This document shows positions 12,044 through 25,672 of a DNA stretch of 64,000 nucleotides, one piece after another; positions within the stretch are counted from its first letter, which is position 1, and each line of letters starts with the position of its first letter. The notes below the pieces were generated by a model, which was given only the letters and a program-made list of their open reading frames with translations, did no database searches and was not told where the DNA came from. Where the stretch lies: the NCBI GenBank assembly GCA_903907955.1, contig CAIVPZ010000109.1, forward strand, positions 124,001 to 188,000, given 5' to 3'. The DNA comes from an uncultured Acetobacteraceae bacterium (GTDB lineage: Bacteria; Pseudomonadota; Alphaproteobacteria; Acetobacterales; Acetobacteraceae). Both the position numbers and the translations under genes were made by a program.

Positions 12044-13555
12044 CTATTCGTTGGTGAAAAGGTGCCGGATGACTTCGATCTCGCCGCCGCTGGCATGGCG
12101 GGGCGTGCCGGCCAGGATGCCGGTTACCTCACGGAACGGCTTGCCGATATGCATGCCGTGCGCGTCGATGGTGAACTCGCGGATGTCCTTGTCATGGCGC
12201 GATCCGCGCATCTTCAGCACCGTGATGCCGCGCCGCATCTCGCCATACATCTCGACGTAGCGCAGCAGAATGATCAGGTCGGTGATGGTCGAAATATGCG
12301 CCTCGGTCACCGATTCCCCCCCGAGCAGATTGGGGGTGGTCGCCGTGAACAGGCCGGCAACTTCCTGGTGCTTGATGAACGAGGTCAGCCCGACCACGAA
12401 CTCGCGGAACCCGCGCGGTCCCGACACCCGTTCCAGCGCCGACAGGCTGTCCACCGCCACCCGCTGCGGGGCGAAGGATTCGATGGTGCGCTTCATCCGG
12501 ATCAGATGGTCTTCCAGGCCGTCGTTCTCCGGGTAGGCGCAGACCACCTTGAGCTTGCCCTCGGCCTCCATCCGCTCATAGTCGACGCCCCAGCCGGTGG
12601 CGTTGCGGAACAGCTGTTCGCGACTTTCCTCGAAAGCGAACAGCAGGCAGCGCTCGTTCAGCCGTGCGCCGCCCGCCATGAACTCGGTTGCCATCAGGGT
12701 CTTGCCGGTGCCGGTGGCGCCGGAAACCAGGATGATCGAGTCGCGGAAGAACCCGCCGCCGCACATCGCGTCCATGTCGATGCTGCCGGAGGTGATGCGC
12801 ACGTTGGACGACCGCTGCTTGAGCTCGATCGCCGACAACGGGATGACCACCATGCCCTCGCCGTTCAGGATGGCGAACGGGTATTCGCCCTTGTGGTGCG
12901 GCGTGCCACGGAACTTGAGAATTTCCAGGGTGCGCCGCCGCTTCTCGCCTTCCAGCACGTTGCGCAGGATGATGACGTTGTCGGCCACGAACTCCTCGAC
13001 GCCGTAGCGGGCGATCTCGCCGTACTCGGCGGTGCGCTCCGCGGTCAGCAGGGCGGTCAGGCCCAGCCGCTTGAGCGCGGTGGCGATGCGGAACATCTCG
13101 CGCCGCACCGTGGCGCTGTCGGTGAACTGGGTGAAGATGGCGCCAAGCGAATCCATCGAGAGGCGGTGCGCGCCCACCCGCGATACCGCGTATTCGATGC
13201 GGGCGAGCAGCGCGCCAAGATCGTAGTCGCCGACGATCACCGTCTCATGCGAAGGCTCCGGCGAGGCATCGACGAACGCCCAGAGCCCCTGGGCCTCCCA
13301 GGCCGCGATGTCCCAGCCGAAGCCGCTCATGTTGACGCGGACGTCCTCGGCGCTTTCCTCGAAGGTGACGAACACCCCGGACTCGCCGGTGTGACGGATG
13401 CCCTCGGCCAGGAACTGCGCCGCAAGAATCGTTTTGGCACTGCCGGCGCTGCCACACACGAGGGTGGTTCGTCCCAATGGCAGACCACCGTCGGCGACAT
13501 GGTCGAAGCCGGGAATATGGCTGGCAAGCTTGGTGATCGATGTGGTGTTAGCCAT
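12044..13555 (-). CDS. kaiC: Circadian clock ATPase/autokinase KaiC
   Basis: Double-domain RecA-like KaiC, 503 residues. CI: Walker A GSAGSAKT (35-42) and catalytic Glu pair FEE (66-67). CII: Walker A GATGTGKT (279-286), Glu pair 309-310, and the phosphosite context EAHISTITD, in which Ser422 and Thr423 align with Ser431/Thr432 of Synechococcus KaiC. Conserved phosphosites predict autokinase activity. The C-terminal tail after ILAGTP is ~20 residues, slightly shorter than the cyanobacterial tail, and lacks the long coiled coil of some proteobacterial KaiCs. It is the last gene of a six-gene minus-strand operon, 37 nt after kaiB. The rhythm or hourglass outputs it would drive are not visible here. 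Confidence 0.95.
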   Translation of the reverse strand: MANTTSITKLASHIPGFDHVADGGLPLGRTTLVCGSAGSAKTILAAQFLAEGIRHTGESGVFVTFEESAEDVRVNMSGFGWDIAAWEAQGLWAFVDASPEPSHETVIVGDYDLGALLARIEYAVSRVGAHRLSMDSLGAIFTQFTDSATVRREMFRIATALKRLGLTALLTAERTAEYGEIARYGVEEFVADNVIILRNVLEGEKRRRTLEILKFRGTPHHKGEYPFAILNGEGMVVIPLSAIELKQRSSNVRITSGSIDMDAMCGGGFFRDSIILVSGATGTGKTLMATEFMAGGARLNERCLLFAFEESREQLFRNATGWGVDYERMEAEGKLKVVCAYPENDGLEDHLIRMKRTIESFAPQRVAVDSLSALERVSGPRGFREFVVGLTSFIKHQEVAGLFTATTPNLLGGESVTEAHISTITDLIILLRYVEMYGEMRRGITVLKMRGSRHDKDIREFTIDAHGMHIGKPFREVTGILAGTPRHASGGEIEVIRHLFTNE

Positions 13556-13592: not shown

Positions 13593-13886
13593 TCAGGAAT
13601 TCCGCGGCGGCGACGGCGCGAGGCCGAGCCCCATCAGAACCTTATCGGAATCGGAAAGATCGCCGATGACGCGGCGCATGGGCTGCGGCAGAAACATCAC
13701 CAGCATCGGCGTGGCGATGATCCTTTCCTTTTCGGCGATCTGTGGGTTCTCGAGAATGTCGATGACCTCGACTTCGTAGCTGCGACCGTCAAATTCCTTT
13801 TCGCAAAGCTCGCGCAGGTTGGCGATCGCGCGTTCCGCCCGTGGAGTCTGGCCGATGACATACAGCTTGAGGCGATATTCACTCAT
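13593..13886 (-). CDS. kaiB: Clock protein KaiB
   Basis: A 97-residue thioredoxin-like fold-switching protein that binds the KaiC CI ring. The sequence fits throughout: LKLYVIGQTPRAERAIANLREL, a YEVEVIDILENPQIAEKERIIATPML segment (the fold-switch half) and a short C-terminus. ATG 13886 overlaps the preceding receiver gene stop by 8 nt (ATGAGTGA), implying coupled translation. It is not fused to a kinase, so it is KaiB rather than a SasA N-terminus. Confidence 0.95.
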   Translation of the reverse strand: MSEYRLKLYVIGQTPRAERAIANLRELCEKEFDGRSYEVEVIDILENPQIAEKERIIATPMLVMFLPQPMRRVIGDLSDSDKVLMGLGLAPSPPRNS

Positions 13887-14808
13887 GCGTATTCTTGCCC
13901 GTTGGCGACAGGACCGCGTCGGGATGGCGGCGAATGGCCAGGTTGCGGCTGCGATAGGCGTTCAACACCCGGCCCATCAGTTCGATCAGCGTGAGCCGGC
14001 CGGTCTCCATCAAGGCCCGCGCGCGTCCCGGCGCCTCGCCGGCCGCGCAGGCGGAGAGTGCCCGGTAATGCAGCTCCGTCACGTCGCGTGCGCCGGCGCG
14101 CGTGCGGAACAGGCGCTCGGCAAGGTCGCGAAGGCCGATCGTGACCACATTCTCAATCCGGAAGATACGCTGTTCGAGGGCGTTGCGGAGCAGCGACTGA
14201 TAGGCGGCCTGCAGCTCGGCGAACGCCGCCGGCGCCGTTTCGCTGAGCGGCCCCACGCCGAGCACCCGCGCACTCATCGGCACCGTGCCGGCCGCCGAGT
14301 CGCCAAGCGCGCGGATTTCGGCGTCATAGCTGGCCTGGCGTTCGCGCTCGAACTGCTCGCGCCAATGGCGCTCGCTGTCGCGCAAATCGTCGATCGTGAT
14401 CTTGTGGCGCAGATAGGCATGCACCCGGGCAAGCAGCTCGCGATTGTCCACCGGCCGCGACAGGTAGCCATCGGCGCCCGCAGCGATTCCCTGCACCACC
14501 GAATCGCCGTCGGTGCGCAGGGCTGAACACAGCACGACGAAGGCGCTGCTGGTTCGCGGGTCGGCCTTGATCTGGCGGCAGACCTCCAAACCGTCGATGT
14601 CCGGCAGCATGACGTCGAGCAGGATCAGATCCGGCTGCTGCTGCTGGGCGCGGCGCAGCGCTTCCTCGCCGCTGTGGACCTGGGTGACCGTATAGCCTTC
14701 CCGCGCCAGCAGCCGGGCCGAGCCGGCGGTGATCGTCGCGTCGTCATCGACCACCAGGATATCGGCCGTCCCATCCTTGAAGACCGGCCGTGGTGCCGAA
14801 TTGTTCAT
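13879..14808 (-). CDS. Receiver domain fused to a KaiA/RsbU-like helical domain
   Basis: A 309-residue protein. Residues ~15-132 are a CheY-like receiver with acidic pocket Asp21-23 and phospho-acceptor Asp65 (LILLDVMLPD); the usual conserved Lys is Arg118 (SRPV). Residues ~135-170 are a charged probable coiled coil. Residues ~197-290 form an all-helical domain (YQSLLRNALEQRIFRIENVV, DVTELHYRAL, LIELMGRVLNAYRS) whose spacing recalls the KaiA C-terminal / RsbU N-terminal four-helix fold. There is no DNA-binding or enzymatic output. Its position directly before and overlapping kaiB suggests it feeds kinase signals into KaiBC, as KaiA or KaiA3 does in cyanobacteria; that role is inference. ATG 14808 is chosen because the receiver begins shortly after it; the upstream residues look like read-through. 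Confidence 0.72.
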   Translation of the reverse strand: MNNSAPRPVFKDGTADILVVDDDATITAGSARLLAREGYTVTQVHSGEEALRRAQQQQPDLILLDVMLPDIDGLEVCRQIKADPRTSSAFVVLCSALRTDGDSVVQGIAAGADGYLSRPVDNRELLARVHAYLRHKITIDDLRDSERHWREQFERERQASYDAEIRALGDSAAGTVPMSARVLGVGPLSETAPAAFAELQAAYQSLLRNALEQRIFRIENVVTIGLRDLAERLFRTRAGARDVTELHYRALSACAAGEAPGRARALMETGRLTLIELMGRVLNAYRSRNLAIRRHPDAVLSPTGKNTHE

Positions 14809-14863: not shown

Positions 14864-15520
14864 TCACGGCTGTACTCGTTGCGCACGGGCGCCCGCTGCG
14901 GCGCGGGCCTGCGATACCGTGGCCTCGACGGCGGCAATCCAGCCCGCCGGAAAGCGTTGCGGGTTGGTCATCCAGCCGCTCAGATTGACAGCCGCGCCGA
15001 TGCTCCCGTCGATTTCGTCGGCCACGGCCGCGACCAGAAGGTGGGGGGTCTGCGGCAGGCGCGAGCGCCAGTAAGCCTCGGTTGCCAGGTCGAAGGCTGC
15101 GGCCAATGCCGCGATCTGCACATCCGGGATATGCGCCTGCCGGGCATCGCGCAGGCCATCGGCGGCCCGGCGCAGCGTGTCATGGACGGCGATATTCGCC
15201 GGAAACGCGGCATCAAGCTCGTCGCACAGGATATTCAGATGCGTCTGCAGGATAAGGGAAGGAATGCCCCGGGTCGCGAGCACCTGGCGCAGCCAGCTAA
15301 TCTGCCCGGCAACGGTGGGCGGGTCAAGGTGGGTCAGGGTGGCCAGCCAGGCACTGTCGCTGCGGGTAAAGCGGTAGCCACGTTCGCCATATCGTTCGGC
15401 CAGATAGGGAAAGCGATGCCAACAGAGATCGCCGGCGCGCAGCGAGGCCGCCAACTCCCGCGGATCGGCCGGCACCGGATGCGTGGCCGCCTCGGCATTG
15501 AGCATAGCTGCAGAAATCAC
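14864..15520 (-). CDS. Unknown helical protein of the clock operon
   Basis: A 218-residue soluble, mostly helical protein with no signal peptide or membrane segment and no family I can name. A central block (residues 66-107; D66, P68, W76, RGIP 84-87, H94-L95, P107) matches, almost without gaps, residues 68-110 of the cobalamin protein two genes upstream (D68, P70, W79, RGVP 87-90, H97-L98, P110), so both carry one shared domain. It may be a partner or dimerisation adaptor of that sensor. It is separated by 154 nt from the kinase gene and by 55 nt from the receiver gene, so a separate promoter in the 154-nt gap is possible. Confidence 0.7.
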   Translation of the reverse strand: MISAAMLNAEAATHPVPADPRELAASLRAGDLCWHRFPYLAERYGERGYRFTRSDSAWLATLTHLDPPTVAGQISWLRQVLATRGIPSLILQTHLNILCDELDAAFPANIAVHDTLRRAADGLRDARQAHIPDVQIAALAAAFDLATEAYWRSRLPQTPHLLVAAVADEIDGSIGAAVNLSGWMTNPQRFPAGWIAAVEATVSQARAAAGARAQRVQP

Positions 15521-15674
15521 CCGGAACTCCGTCGGAACTTCGACAAGGTGTTGTTAAACCAAAAGAAATTTTAGCCTAGCAGTCGGACGCCCGGAATGGC
15601 AAGCGAATCTTCCCGCTGGACCGGGCCGGCTTGCATGTCCAGGCGCGTTGTCACAGATGTGGCGCCGCCCCCAT

Positions 15675-16898
15675 TCAGCCCTCCACCGGGCCTCGCATGG
15701 GCAGGCTCAGGATGAAGCGGGAGCCGCGTCCGACCTCGCTTTCGACGCGGACCTCGCCACCATGCCCTTCGGCGATCCGGCGGACGATGGCGAGGCCAAG
15801 GCCAGTGCTCCTTTCGCCGGCGGTGGGGCGCACGGTGGTCCGGCTGAACGGCTTGAAGAGCTTGGACAGGTCCGCCGGCGGGATTCCCTGCCCCTGGTCC
15901 TCGACCTCGATTGTCACGCTGCTGCCGCTGGTGCCGAGCCGGACATTCACCTGGGTGTGTGCCGGCGAGAACTTGATGGCGTTGCTGATCAGGTTGTTGA
16001 GGATCTGCTCGACCTTGGCGGCGTCGACGGTGACCGGCAGCGTTTCCACCGCCGGCTCGAAACGAAGCTCGATCTGTTTGCGCGCGGCCAGGACCCGGTT
16101 GAGCCGCAGGTTGTTCTGCAACAGTGCCACCAGCTCGGTCGGCTGCAGCTTCAGATTGAGCTGCCCGGCTTCGATTTGCGAGACGTCCAGGATATCGTCG
16201 AGCAACCCGAGCATGAACTGGCTGGTGGCCCGGATGGTTGAGACGAATGCCCGCTGCTCGCTGTCGAGCACCTCCGCCGCCTCGTTTTCCAGGAACTCGC
16301 TGTAGGTCAGGATCACCCCGATCGGACTGCGCAGGTCGTGCGCCGCAATGCCCAGCAGCCGGTTCTTTTCCTCGTTGAGCATCGAGAGTTCGGCGTTCTT
16401 GCGCGCCAGCTCCCGCTGGAGGTTGGCCAGCTCGTTGTTGACGCGCGTCAGATCCTCGAACATCGCGTCGTCGCGATCCCGGTTCTGCGAGGAGACGACG
16501 GCGAGCTTCTTCGCCATGGCGCGCAGCGTATTGGTTTGTTCGTTGTTGATGCGCAGCATCTCCTCGTTCATGCGGACCAGGGCGCTGCGGGTTCGCGCGG
16601 CGACGACCAGCATGCCTTCCTCGGTTCGCACGCCGGCGAAATGGAGCGGCATCAAAACGGTTCCGGTTGGGCCGGCGCCGGTTGCGACGGTGATCTCCCA
16701 GTCGAATGATGCGTCGTACTTGCGGACCGCCTCGGCAAAGGCGTTGAGCTTGTCCCGGGCAACCGGATCGACCAGCGCATCCAGGCGCGCCCCCGGCGGG
16801 GTTCGCGGCGAGAGACCAAGATCGTCGCGCACCACCCGTATGACCGTGCCGTCGGCCTCGCAGCGAAGCGCGATTCCCCCTTCGGTGGCCGTATTCAT
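15675..16898 (-). CDS. PAS-type sensor histidine kinase of the clock operon
   Basis: A 407-residue cytoplasmic kinase. Residues ~8-105 look like a PAS-like domain; ~108-182 a long coiled coil (NEEMLRINNEQTNTLRAMAKK, ELANLQRELARKNAELSMLNEE); then a HisKA domain with His187 (AAHDLRSPIG) and a HATPase_c domain (N box NNLISNAIKF, G1 DQGQGIP, G2 STGLGLAI). There are no membrane segments and no KaiB-like SasA domain. ATG 16898 overlaps the B12 gene stop by 4 nt (ATGA), so the two are translated together. The obvious phosphotransfer partner is the receiver protein at 13879-14808. A longer frame reads into the upstream gene and is rejected. Confidence 0.92.
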   Translation of the reverse strand: MNTATEGGIALRCEADGTVIRVVRDDLGLSPRTPPGARLDALVDPVARDKLNAFAEAVRKYDASFDWEITVATGAGPTGTVLMPLHFAGVRTEEGMLVVAARTRSALVRMNEEMLRINNEQTNTLRAMAKKLAVVSSQNRDRDDAMFEDLTRVNNELANLQRELARKNAELSMLNEEKNRLLGIAAHDLRSPIGVILTYSEFLENEAAEVLDSEQRAFVSTIRATSQFMLGLLDDILDVSQIEAGQLNLKLQPTELVALLQNNLRLNRVLAARKQIELRFEPAVETLPVTVDAAKVEQILNNLISNAIKFSPAHTQVNVRLGTSGSSVTIEVEDQGQGIPPADLSKLFKPFSRTTVRPTAGERSTGLGLAIVRRIAEGHGGEVRVESEVGRGSRFILSLPMRGPVEG

Positions 16899-17983
16899 GA
16901 GCACCCCAGCTTTGCATCGACCAGATTGTTGGCAAGCAGGACCGCCGCGTCCGCGTCGGGTCCGCTGCCGTCCGCCCCGATCTGCTGCCAGAGCCCCGGC
17001 TGGTGATTGAACGGGAAGCCGCCGACGATGACCTTGACGCCGCTGCACTCCGGACGATCACGGACCAGGTCGATCAGGCGCTTCACCTCCTCGATGTGAT
17101 GGGCGATGGTGGCGGAGATTGCCAGCACGCCGGCCCGGCGTTCGATGACGGCCTGGACAACGTCGCTGATCGGGGTGTTGGCGCCGGTATAATACGAGTC
17201 CCAGCCATCGATTTCGAAAAAGTCGGCAACCATGCGCGCGCCCAGCTCATGCAGCTCGCCGCTGACACAGGCGACAACGACGGTGCGGCCAATCTTCTTG
17301 CTGGAAAAGATGTACGAATAAAGCTGTGACATGATGAGCTGGGTTGCCGCCGTCGCGTAGTGCTCCTCGGCAACGCTGATCCGGTTGATCTGCCACAGGC
17401 GGCCGATCTCATGCATGGTGGGCAGGAACACGTGGAGGTAGATTTCCTTGATCGGCGTGCCCAGTTCCGCCATCTGCAGCACCAGACGGCTGCCCAGTTG
17501 CCGGTCGCCGCGGAGCAACGCCCGGAAATAGAGGGTTGCCAGTGGCGAGAGCGGCGCACCCGGCCGCAGGAAGCCCGGCGGCTCATCGGGCAGCTCCGGC
17601 ATGGCCTGCAAGGCCGCCAGCACGACATCGGAAGCCTGGCTGCCGGCATCGTTGGGAAGCCCCCGGCGCACGGCCGCCGCGACATATTCCAGATGCAGTG
17701 CGAGCGCCGAGTCCGGCACGCCCCGCTGGATCAGCGCGGCCTTTGCCCAGCCCACGCAATCGATGAACAGGATTGGCTTGTCCCATGCCAGGGCCCGGCG
17801 AAGGTCGGCAAGGAGATGCCCGGCAATCTGCCGCAGGAACTTCTGCCTGTCGGCGCCATCGCCGCTGCCGTTGGGCTGGGAGGGGGCCGGCACCCGGCCG
17901 GTGAGGTCGCTGACGATTTCGGCGCGTGCCGCGACCAGCCACTCGCTCGCCTGCAGTTGCGGCGACCGGGAGTCGCTTACCAT
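16895..17983 (-). CDS. Cobalamin-binding protein with CarH-like photosensor motifs
   Basis: A 362-residue protein. The N-terminal part (~50-130) is helical and shares a block with the unknown protein at 14864-15520. Residues ~145-225 are a B12-binding cap domain containing W197-x9-E207-H208 (WQINRISVAEEH), the Wx9EH motif that places the upper axial side in light-sensing AdoCbl proteins such as CarH. The Rossmann domain (~233-355) carries SGELHELG with His245 as the lower ligand; CarH-type proteins likewise use GExHExG rather than DxHxxG. There is no MerR DNA-binding domain, so the output is probably protein contact with the kinase encoded by the overlapping next gene. Light or B12 sensing is inference from the motifs. 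It is the first gene of the clock operon. Confidence 0.85.
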   Translation of the reverse strand: MVSDSRSPQLQASEWLVAARAEIVSDLTGRVPAPSQPNGSGDGADRQKFLRQIAGHLLADLRRALAWDKPILFIDCVGWAKAALIQRGVPDSALALHLEYVAAAVRRGLPNDAGSQASDVVLAALQAMPELPDEPPGFLRPGAPLSPLATLYFRALLRGDRQLGSRLVLQMAELGTPIKEIYLHVFLPTMHEIGRLWQINRISVAEEHYATAATQLIMSQLYSYIFSSKKIGRTVVVACVSGELHELGARMVADFFEIDGWDSYYTGANTPISDVVQAVIERRAGVLAISATIAHHIEEVKRLIDLVRDRPECSGVKVIVGGFPFNHQPGLWQQIGADGSGPDADAAVLLANNLVDAKLGCS

Positions 17984-25252: not shown

Positions 25253-25672
25253 ATGAAACAAATATGCAAGACAGCCTTAGCGCTTGGTTTGGTGCTGTTT
25301 TCGGCCAACGCCTATGCGGCCTGCGTTGGTTACGCCGGCCCTGGAGGGCCATGCTATACAGGGCCGGGCGGCGGACTATACACCGGCCCAGGCGGCGGTG
25401 CTTACACTGGTCCCGGTGGTGGCGCTTACACCGGCCCGGGCGGCGGTGCTTACACTGGCCCCGGTGGCGGCGCTTACACCGGTCCAGGCGGCGGCGCTTA
25501 CACTGGCCCAGGGGGTGGTGCTTACACTGGCCCAGGGGGTGGGGCATCCACCGCTCCGGGTGGCGGAGCTTACGCTGGTCCGGGCGGGCCTTGCTCCTCC
25601 GCTCCGGGGGGCGTGGCGTATGACCGATGGAACCGCCCCTCTCCATACTGCAATCAGTCACAGGGACGATGA
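25253..25672 (+). CDS. Secreted glycine-rich repeat protein (YTGPGGGA repeats)
   Basis: A 139-residue protein with a Sec signal peptide (residues 1-22, ending ANAYA) and a mature region that is almost entirely an 8-residue repeat. After ACVGYAGPGGPC come one YTGPGGGL, seven YTGPGGGA, then variants STAPGGGA, YAGPGGPC, SSAPGGVA, and a C-terminal YDRWNRPSPYCNQSQGR. Cys residues flank the array at both ends and could close it by disulphide. Similar small secreted proteins occur in Bradyrhizobium and relatives, function unknown. Pro-Gly-Gly repeats suggest an extended, elastin- or collagen-like periplasmic or surface polymer. Synonymous changes between repeat units argue for selection on the protein. 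Confidence 0.82.
   Translation: MKQICKTALALGLVLFSANAYAACVGYAGPGGPCYTGPGGGLYTGPGGGAYTGPGGGAYTGPGGGAYTGPGGGAYTGPGGGAYTGPGGGAYTGPGGGASTAPGGGAYAGPGGPCSSAPGGVAYDRWNRPSPYCNQSQGR

Follow-up and report, generated by a model that had tools for sequence, protein, structure and literature searches.

To our knowledge, the characterised B12 photoreceptors are MerR-type repressors, the AerR antirepressor and photocobilins. Schneider is said to have proposed, in 2022, that photoglobins and B12 proteins associate in signalling. The available text of the SignatureFinder study (PMC11796333) gives four motifs, GxxW, EH, GxxH and GxxxP, as the signature of light response. Among 128,000 B12-domain sequences, 1561 (after clustering) carried it. 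In the photocobilins SasPcob and AbDPcob (8J2W, 8J2X and 8J2Y), as far as the sections available of PMC10979010 describe them, one chain combines the W/EH/His motif of the B12 module with a bilin-type globin. The globin is C-terminal in the two described members, and the output is a fused cyclase. In SasPcob, Asp270 contacts biliverdin and Trp296 bonds the corrin. Globin and B12 protein may also be co-encoded, as in the BBAG-2/photoglobin-B12 gene pairs, which in the excerpted PMC10151467 are accompanied by a bilin reductase (pre-2) or come from genomes that also encode heme oxygenase. The main texts of the photocobilin (PMC10979010) and SignatureFinder (PMC11796333) papers contain no word beginning with 'kinase'. 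Among the papers listed by literature searches, none describes, judged by title or abstract, a B12-kinase pairing or a link between such a pair and Kai genes.

The window analysed here is a stretch of 64,000 nucleotides. On its minus strand, an ORF starting with ATG (17983..16895) encodes a B12-binding protein of 362 amino acids, with an N-terminal bilin-type globin followed by four-helix and Rossmann B12 domains. Frame 1 of the plus strand is interrupted by stops across 16895-17983. Pfam places B12-binding_2 at residues 152-221 (2.7e-14) and B12-binding at residues 234-348 (1.7e-23). The putative AdoCbl module, of CarH/photocobilin type, spans residues 140-362 (16898..17566, minus strand). 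All four published light-response motifs are found in it: GxxW at 194-197, EH at 207-208, GxxH at 242-245 and GxxxP at 267-271. Residues G194, W197, Q198, E207, H208, G242, H245, G267 and P271 were confirmed, and the ligand His of GxxH lies in G242-E-L-H245-E-L-G. The initial annotation had drawn attention to W197-x9-E207-H208 and GELHELG (His245) in a cobalamin protein with no DNA-binding domain. Both motifs are at the positions claimed, and Pfam returned no MerR/HTH match for the protein.

The same annotation had called the site CarH-like. Motif and fold agree with this, but the protein is nearer to photocobilins, given its N-terminal bilin-type globin and Q198 in place of CarH His132. The AdoCbl module and its motifs are shared with the repressors CarH, LitR and CtMerR, whereas their MerR DNA-binding domain is missing. 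The position of CarH H132, which provides the bis-His light state, is Q in 73 of 78 family rows; CtMerR also lacks the His. Hence, no bis-His light state is expected. The NCBIfam CarH equivalog scores 60.4 bits against a cut-off of 400. Among solved chains, the photocobilins 8j2w/8j2x (1e-23) and CtMerR 8jbs (8e-23) are closest in sequence, then photocobilin AbDPcob 8j2y (7e-17). Behind these, and level with each other, come CarH (3.7e-13) and the Moorella corrinoid protein 1y80 (1.9e-13); the best methionine synthase reaches 1.5e-5.

An AlphaFold2 model built from 78 aligned relatives had a mean pLDDT of 94.7 and a pTM of 0.91. Foldseek placed CtMerR, photocobilins and CarH on top. In VIA-align, with the comparison covering residues 142-359, photocobilins were best (Z 27.0, rmsd 2.0 over 212 residues). 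The methylamine corrinoid protein 3ezx (Z 23.4) and methionine synthase 1bmt (22.7) came ahead of CtMerR (Z 22.1) and CarH (about 20). Hence, fold alone does not single out photoreceptors. The predicted fold is of the general B12-domain type, with photocobilins closest, and the case for a putative photosensor rests on the motif.

We therefore consider the motif with its controls. W-x9-EH followed by the ligand-His motif occurred at one of eight B12-domain loci of the same genome, which is the B12 gene itself, and at none of 29 other loci of the order (29 of the 61 other match rows). Elsewhere in the phylum, 5 of 12 loci were positive. These five (L040-L044) are full-length or partial relatives of the B12 protein. 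Judged by this sequence comparison, the motif is beyond chance. E207, H208, H245, G248 and G267 do not vary across the 78-row family alignment, in which 75 of 78 rows keep P271. In 57 of the 78 rows every one of the four motifs is intact, and 20 of the 21 incomplete rows deviate at G242. Most rows came from a scan with a peptide pattern that covers E192-N200; in those rows, the pattern itself partly imposes the constancy of G194, L196, W197 and N200.

The next gene encodes a histidine kinase of 407 amino acids (15675..16898, minus strand) with HisKA and HATPase_c domains and His187. Its ATG overlaps the stop of the B12 gene (TCATGA, 16895-16898), which is the ATGA overlap that had been reported for the pair. 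That annotation had regarded such a pairing as unusual; it is rather the rule of the family. Among the best 80 of 226 relatives, a kinase-like ORF is the next gene downstream on the same strand at 74 loci, where a match to the window kinase of at least 15 bits and a start within 700 nt were required. The ORF was not found at five loci, and at one more there was not enough room for it. At 53 of the 74 loci the gap does not exceed 20 nt, a count biased towards closeness because the start codon nearest the B12 stop was used; the count of 74 is independent of that choice. The N-terminal domain of the kinase (about residues 1-105; 16584..16898, minus strand) recurs beside the B12 gene and was matched at 53 of the 74 loci. 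Its sequence gave no convincing match in Pfam or the PDB. The model (pLDDT 87) has a PAS fold, with a best Z of 11.4 and rmsd 2.1 over 96 residues. Motif, fold and conserved gene order support the earlier notion of a CarH-type AdoCbl site that lacks a DNA-binding domain and is coupled to a kinase. Compared with the photocobilins in the available text of PMC10979010, the partner is a PAS histidine kinase from the next gene and not a fused cyclase.

Three of the 74 loci (L075, L077 and L134) match by the N-terminal PAS domain only. Here, no kinase core was detected in the PAS-sharing protein that follows the B12 gene, and other outputs may exist. Family loci span Chloroflexota, Bacteroidota, Bacillota, Verrucomicrobiota, Gemmatimonadota, Asgard archaea, methanogens and others. 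Within the order of the window organism, no other match reached query residues 1-85 (299 genomes, E up to 1e-10), and the B12-globin-kinase arrangement is rare there.

Residues 1-139 of the B12 protein (17567..17983, minus strand) had passed without comment in the initial annotation. By family profile, they belong to the phycobilin-type globins; the N-terminus of the window protein has no Pfam match alone. A profile of 27 family N-termini matches the biliverdin-binding globin of photocobilin (4.5e-8) and, from 1.2e-6 onwards, chains of allophycocyanin and phycocyanin. Consistent with this, 17 of the 27 members match Pfam Phycobilisome at E up to 1 (best 3.9e-8). The globin is N-terminal here (1-139, then B12 at 140-362), whereas it is C-terminal in the two members described in the portion of PMC10979010 available. 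Asp270 and Trp296 of SasPcob, which correspond to chain positions 264/290 by an offset of 6 inferred from alignments and set by W61 and H108, align to positions 53 and 79 of the family. The corrin-contact Trp (W79) occurs in 71 of the 72 family rows that cover its position and is kept in the window protein, which also shares with SasPcob, as that source describes it, the Q after the motif Trp. Since this corrin contact is conserved, the globin and B12 domains probably pack as in photocobilins despite their reversed order.

Of the 72 rows that cover position 53, 63 have the bilin Asp. The window copy lacks it, having I53, or Q52 if a one-residue insertion is placed elsewhere. The nearest relative, L065, has Val. 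Hence, the fused globin of the window protein probably binds bilin weakly or not at all. According to the same partial source, AbDPcob also lacks this Asp and has His there. Two genes on from the B12 gene is a separate globin-like protein of 218 amino acids (14864..15520, minus strand), with D55 at the bilin-Asp and W76 at the corrin-Trp position. It scores 25.6 bits against the globin profile (L065 copy, E 2e-7) and occurs in 4 of 385 genomes of the class, own included. A separate globin encoded with a B12 protein is likewise a feature of the BBAG-2/photoglobin-B12 pairs in the excerpted PMC10151467. Those are accompanied by a bilin reductase (pre-2) or by heme oxygenase in the genome, whereas in the window the B12 and globin genes have Kai genes and a histidine kinase gene next to them. 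Natural split modules were seen at L091, L104 and L124, where a short B12 protein without fused globin is directly followed by a separate globin-like ORF. At L139 and, on the opposite strand, L134 such an ORF lies farther from the B12 gene.

The genome of the window organism encodes photosynthetic reaction-centre genes, the cobalamin adenosyltransferase CobO and one heme oxygenase. Since adenosyltransferase and heme oxygenase are both present, AdoCbl and biliverdin are each plausible in the cell. At L143 of this genome (4825-9149, minus strand), the heme oxygenase gene is next to ORFs that, by eye, we take to be bacteriophytochrome-like and PpsR-like. Across the family, heme oxygenase PF01126, the single family scanned, was matched in 4 of 50 genomes; many of the 50 are MAGs. 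This result argues against biliverdin as the family's general ligand. The ligand of the fused globin is puzzling, with a bilin-type Asp in 63 rows against so few genomes with PF01126.

With modest confidence, we favour the reading that the B12 protein is a photocobilin-like AdoCbl photoreceptor of reversed architecture, signalling through the adjacent PAS kinase. AdoCbl binding, light response and direct contact with the kinase are predicted by analogy with described relatives. In the dark, AdoCbl would be held by His245 below, with W197, E207 and H208 around the adenosyl group. Green light would break the Co-C bond, adenosine would leave and the helix with E207-H208 would move. This shift could alter the dimer, or how it touches the kinase PAS domain, and thereby change autophosphorylation. 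If true, the pairing of a PAS histidine kinase with a B12-globin protein conserved this widely would add two-component signalling to the outputs of B12 photoreceptors.

The main rival to this photoreceptor reading is that the protein senses B12 status, redox or oxygen: the kinase would read AdoCbl occupancy or the state of the upper ligand, and light would play no part. We regard it as possible, though on the unlikely side. Many relatives come from lineages that are usually dark or anaerobic, such as Lokiarchaeota, Cloacimonadota and Methanobacteriaceae, so light is hardly the signal for the whole family. The scarcity of PF01126, the loss of the CarH bis-His position and the closeness in fold of light-independent corrinoid proteins also fit a sensor of this kind. 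Against it, proteins shown to be green-light responsive, as the available text of PMC11796333 has it, carry this adenosyl-pocket motif, and photosynthetic reaction-centre genes are present in the window organism. A role as corrinoid methyl carrier, as in MtgC or MtbC, serving a methyltransferase, would also explain why corrinoid carriers align at high Z, and MtgC is the best NCBIfam match. Yet its 66.6 bits are far below the cut-off of 370, W-x9-EH is present, the usual downstream neighbour is a kinase gene and no methyltransferase is among the annotated neighbours in the window. We reject this reading as very improbable. A regulator of the AerR/AppA SCHIC type was also set aside. It has a similar fold (Z 19.9 to 21.1), yet lower sequence scores, and W-x9-EH was present in none of the 29 order loci tested.

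The photoreceptor reading gains a possible target from genes beyond the kinase that the earlier annotation had not mentioned. On the same strand, the kinase gene is followed by a 154-bp gap (15521-15674), the 218-aa globin gene and genes for a response regulator, KaiB and KaiC. Hence, a receiver-KaiA-like/KaiB/KaiC cluster adjoins the B12-kinase pair. The regulator (309 aa; 13879..14808, minus strand) has a receiver domain (Response_reg, 4e-27) with the phospho-acceptor D65 identified by motif, and a putative KaiA-like C-terminal domain of KaiA3 type. A profile of six C-terminal sequences gave 13 PDB matches (E up to 10), of which the first 8 are KaiA chains (best 0.0046); the top match, 1r5q, is named 'circadian oscillation regulator'. 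Pfam KaiA matched one of the six profile members (4e-4), which is not the regulator of the window. The PDB-profile and Pfam matches are each weak indications of a KaiA-like domain. KaiB (97 aa; 13593..13886, minus strand) passes Pfam and is under both NCBIfam cut-offs (101.3 vs 110; 96.7 vs 145.3). KaiC (503 aa; 12044..13555, minus strand) is over both NCBIfam KaiC cut-offs.

A receiver-KaiA-like gene directly before kaiB and kaiC is the KaiA3 cluster order given in the sections available of PMC11372060. Both the window and L065 have it. According to the same sections, KaiA3 keeps a phosphorylatable Asp, as the window regulator does, and its kinase is not yet identified. A 2026 review (PMC13421787) says likewise in the text available. 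Compared with KaiA3-KaiB3-KaiC3 as described in that part of PMC11372060, the window adds a globin gene and a B12-sensor/kinase pair, which lie immediately upstream in the same orientation. L065, from an uncultured Acetobacteraceae bacterium, has the same six-gene order with 73-96% protein identity, and each of the six genes shows a third-position excess between window and L065.

Linkage was also found beyond these two loci. KaiB (at least 50 bits) is near the B12 gene at 8 of 80 loci and KaiC (at least 400 bits) at 6 of 80. These counts are lower bounds, with at least 7 kb of sequence on both sides at 38 of the 80 loci; a KaiC-like ORF of 180 bits at L079 is under the threshold of 400 and uncounted. 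The linked Kai genes share the strand of the B12 gene and lie no more than 6.5 kb from it; they follow it at six loci and are upstream of it at two (L073 and L076). A KaiA-like domain accompanies KaiB at L065, L073, L076, L113 and L138, and partially at L110; none was found at the Kai-linked loci L064 and L094. The association of B12, kinase and Kai genes was seen in three phyla: Pseudomonadota, Chloroflexota and Bacteroidota.

Linkage was then counted per genome. In the unpicked genomes of the first 41 relatives, 13 match KaiB at E 0.001, 10 of them strongly (below 1e-15). For 5 of these 10, KaiB is within 7 kb of the B12-kinase pair on the same strand. We put the chance expectation at about 16 kb in 4 Mb. 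The 50-genome set consists of the first 41 loci and nine hand-picked ones, among them three that are Kai-linked. Here, KaiB was matched at E 0.001 in 17 genomes and strongly (below 1e-15) in 14, with linkage in 8 of the 14 strong ones. KaiA3-like domains occur in 8 of the 50 genomes, 6 of 8 beside the B12-kinase pair. Because 5 of these 6 are in the profile itself, only KaiB was used as linkage evidence. On a tree of 72 rows, for which bootstrap support was not settled, the seven Kai-linked rows need at least 6 changes. Hence, the link arose or was lost repeatedly and is not one inherited copy.

The reverse comparison started from the KaiA-like profile, which finds 22 of 398 Pseudomonadota genomes, own included. 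From 19 other genomes of Pseudomonadota, it took in 20 neighbourhoods of KaiA3-like genes (22 of 26 other match rows; those in G370, G332, G366:C155 and G374:C306 were left out). KaiB, KaiC and a kinase-like ORF were each present in 19 of 20, the one miss for KaiC being a cut contig. All 20 neighbourhoods lacked a member of the B12 family, and neither its PAS domain nor its globin was seen in any of them.

These counts bear on two ways of reading the neighbourhood. The pair may stand alone, unrelated to the Kai genes, so that the locus is two separate units. This is a serious possibility, which we place a little short of even. It accommodates the gap between kinase and globin genes, the 72 of 80 family loci with no KaiB within the stretch examined, the Pseudomonadota KaiA3-like neighbourhoods without B12 family, PAS or globin, and the two Kai-linked loci that show no KaiA-like domain. 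It accounts poorly for same-strand KaiB within 6.5 kb at eight loci, for linkage in half of the strong-KaiB genomes among the first 41 and for at least 6 changes among seven linked rows.

Alternatively, the cobalamin photoreceptor would act through the PAS kinase on the KaiA3-type receiver, so that green light sets a KaiA3-KaiB-KaiC timer in an anoxygenic phototroph, with the stand-alone globin as antenna. We advance this proposal tentatively and hold it to be doubtful as a whole. More speculatively than the steps above, the kinase would phosphorylate Asp65 of the KaiA-like regulator, tuning KaiC, and the separate 218-aa globin could serve as a bilin antenna in trans. If true, the B12-partner kinase would be the missing input kinase for one class of KaiA3 clocks. 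The locus is a concrete candidate for light input to a KaiA3 clock, and suggests a way for light to set it.

Two minor observations concern neighbouring sequence. At L183 and L197, from other Pseudomonadota, two KaiA-like/KaiB/KaiC units lie side by side with other kinases around. Elsewhere in the window (25253-25672, plus strand), a small glycine-rich ORF has YTGPGGGA-type repeats after a signal-like N-terminus.
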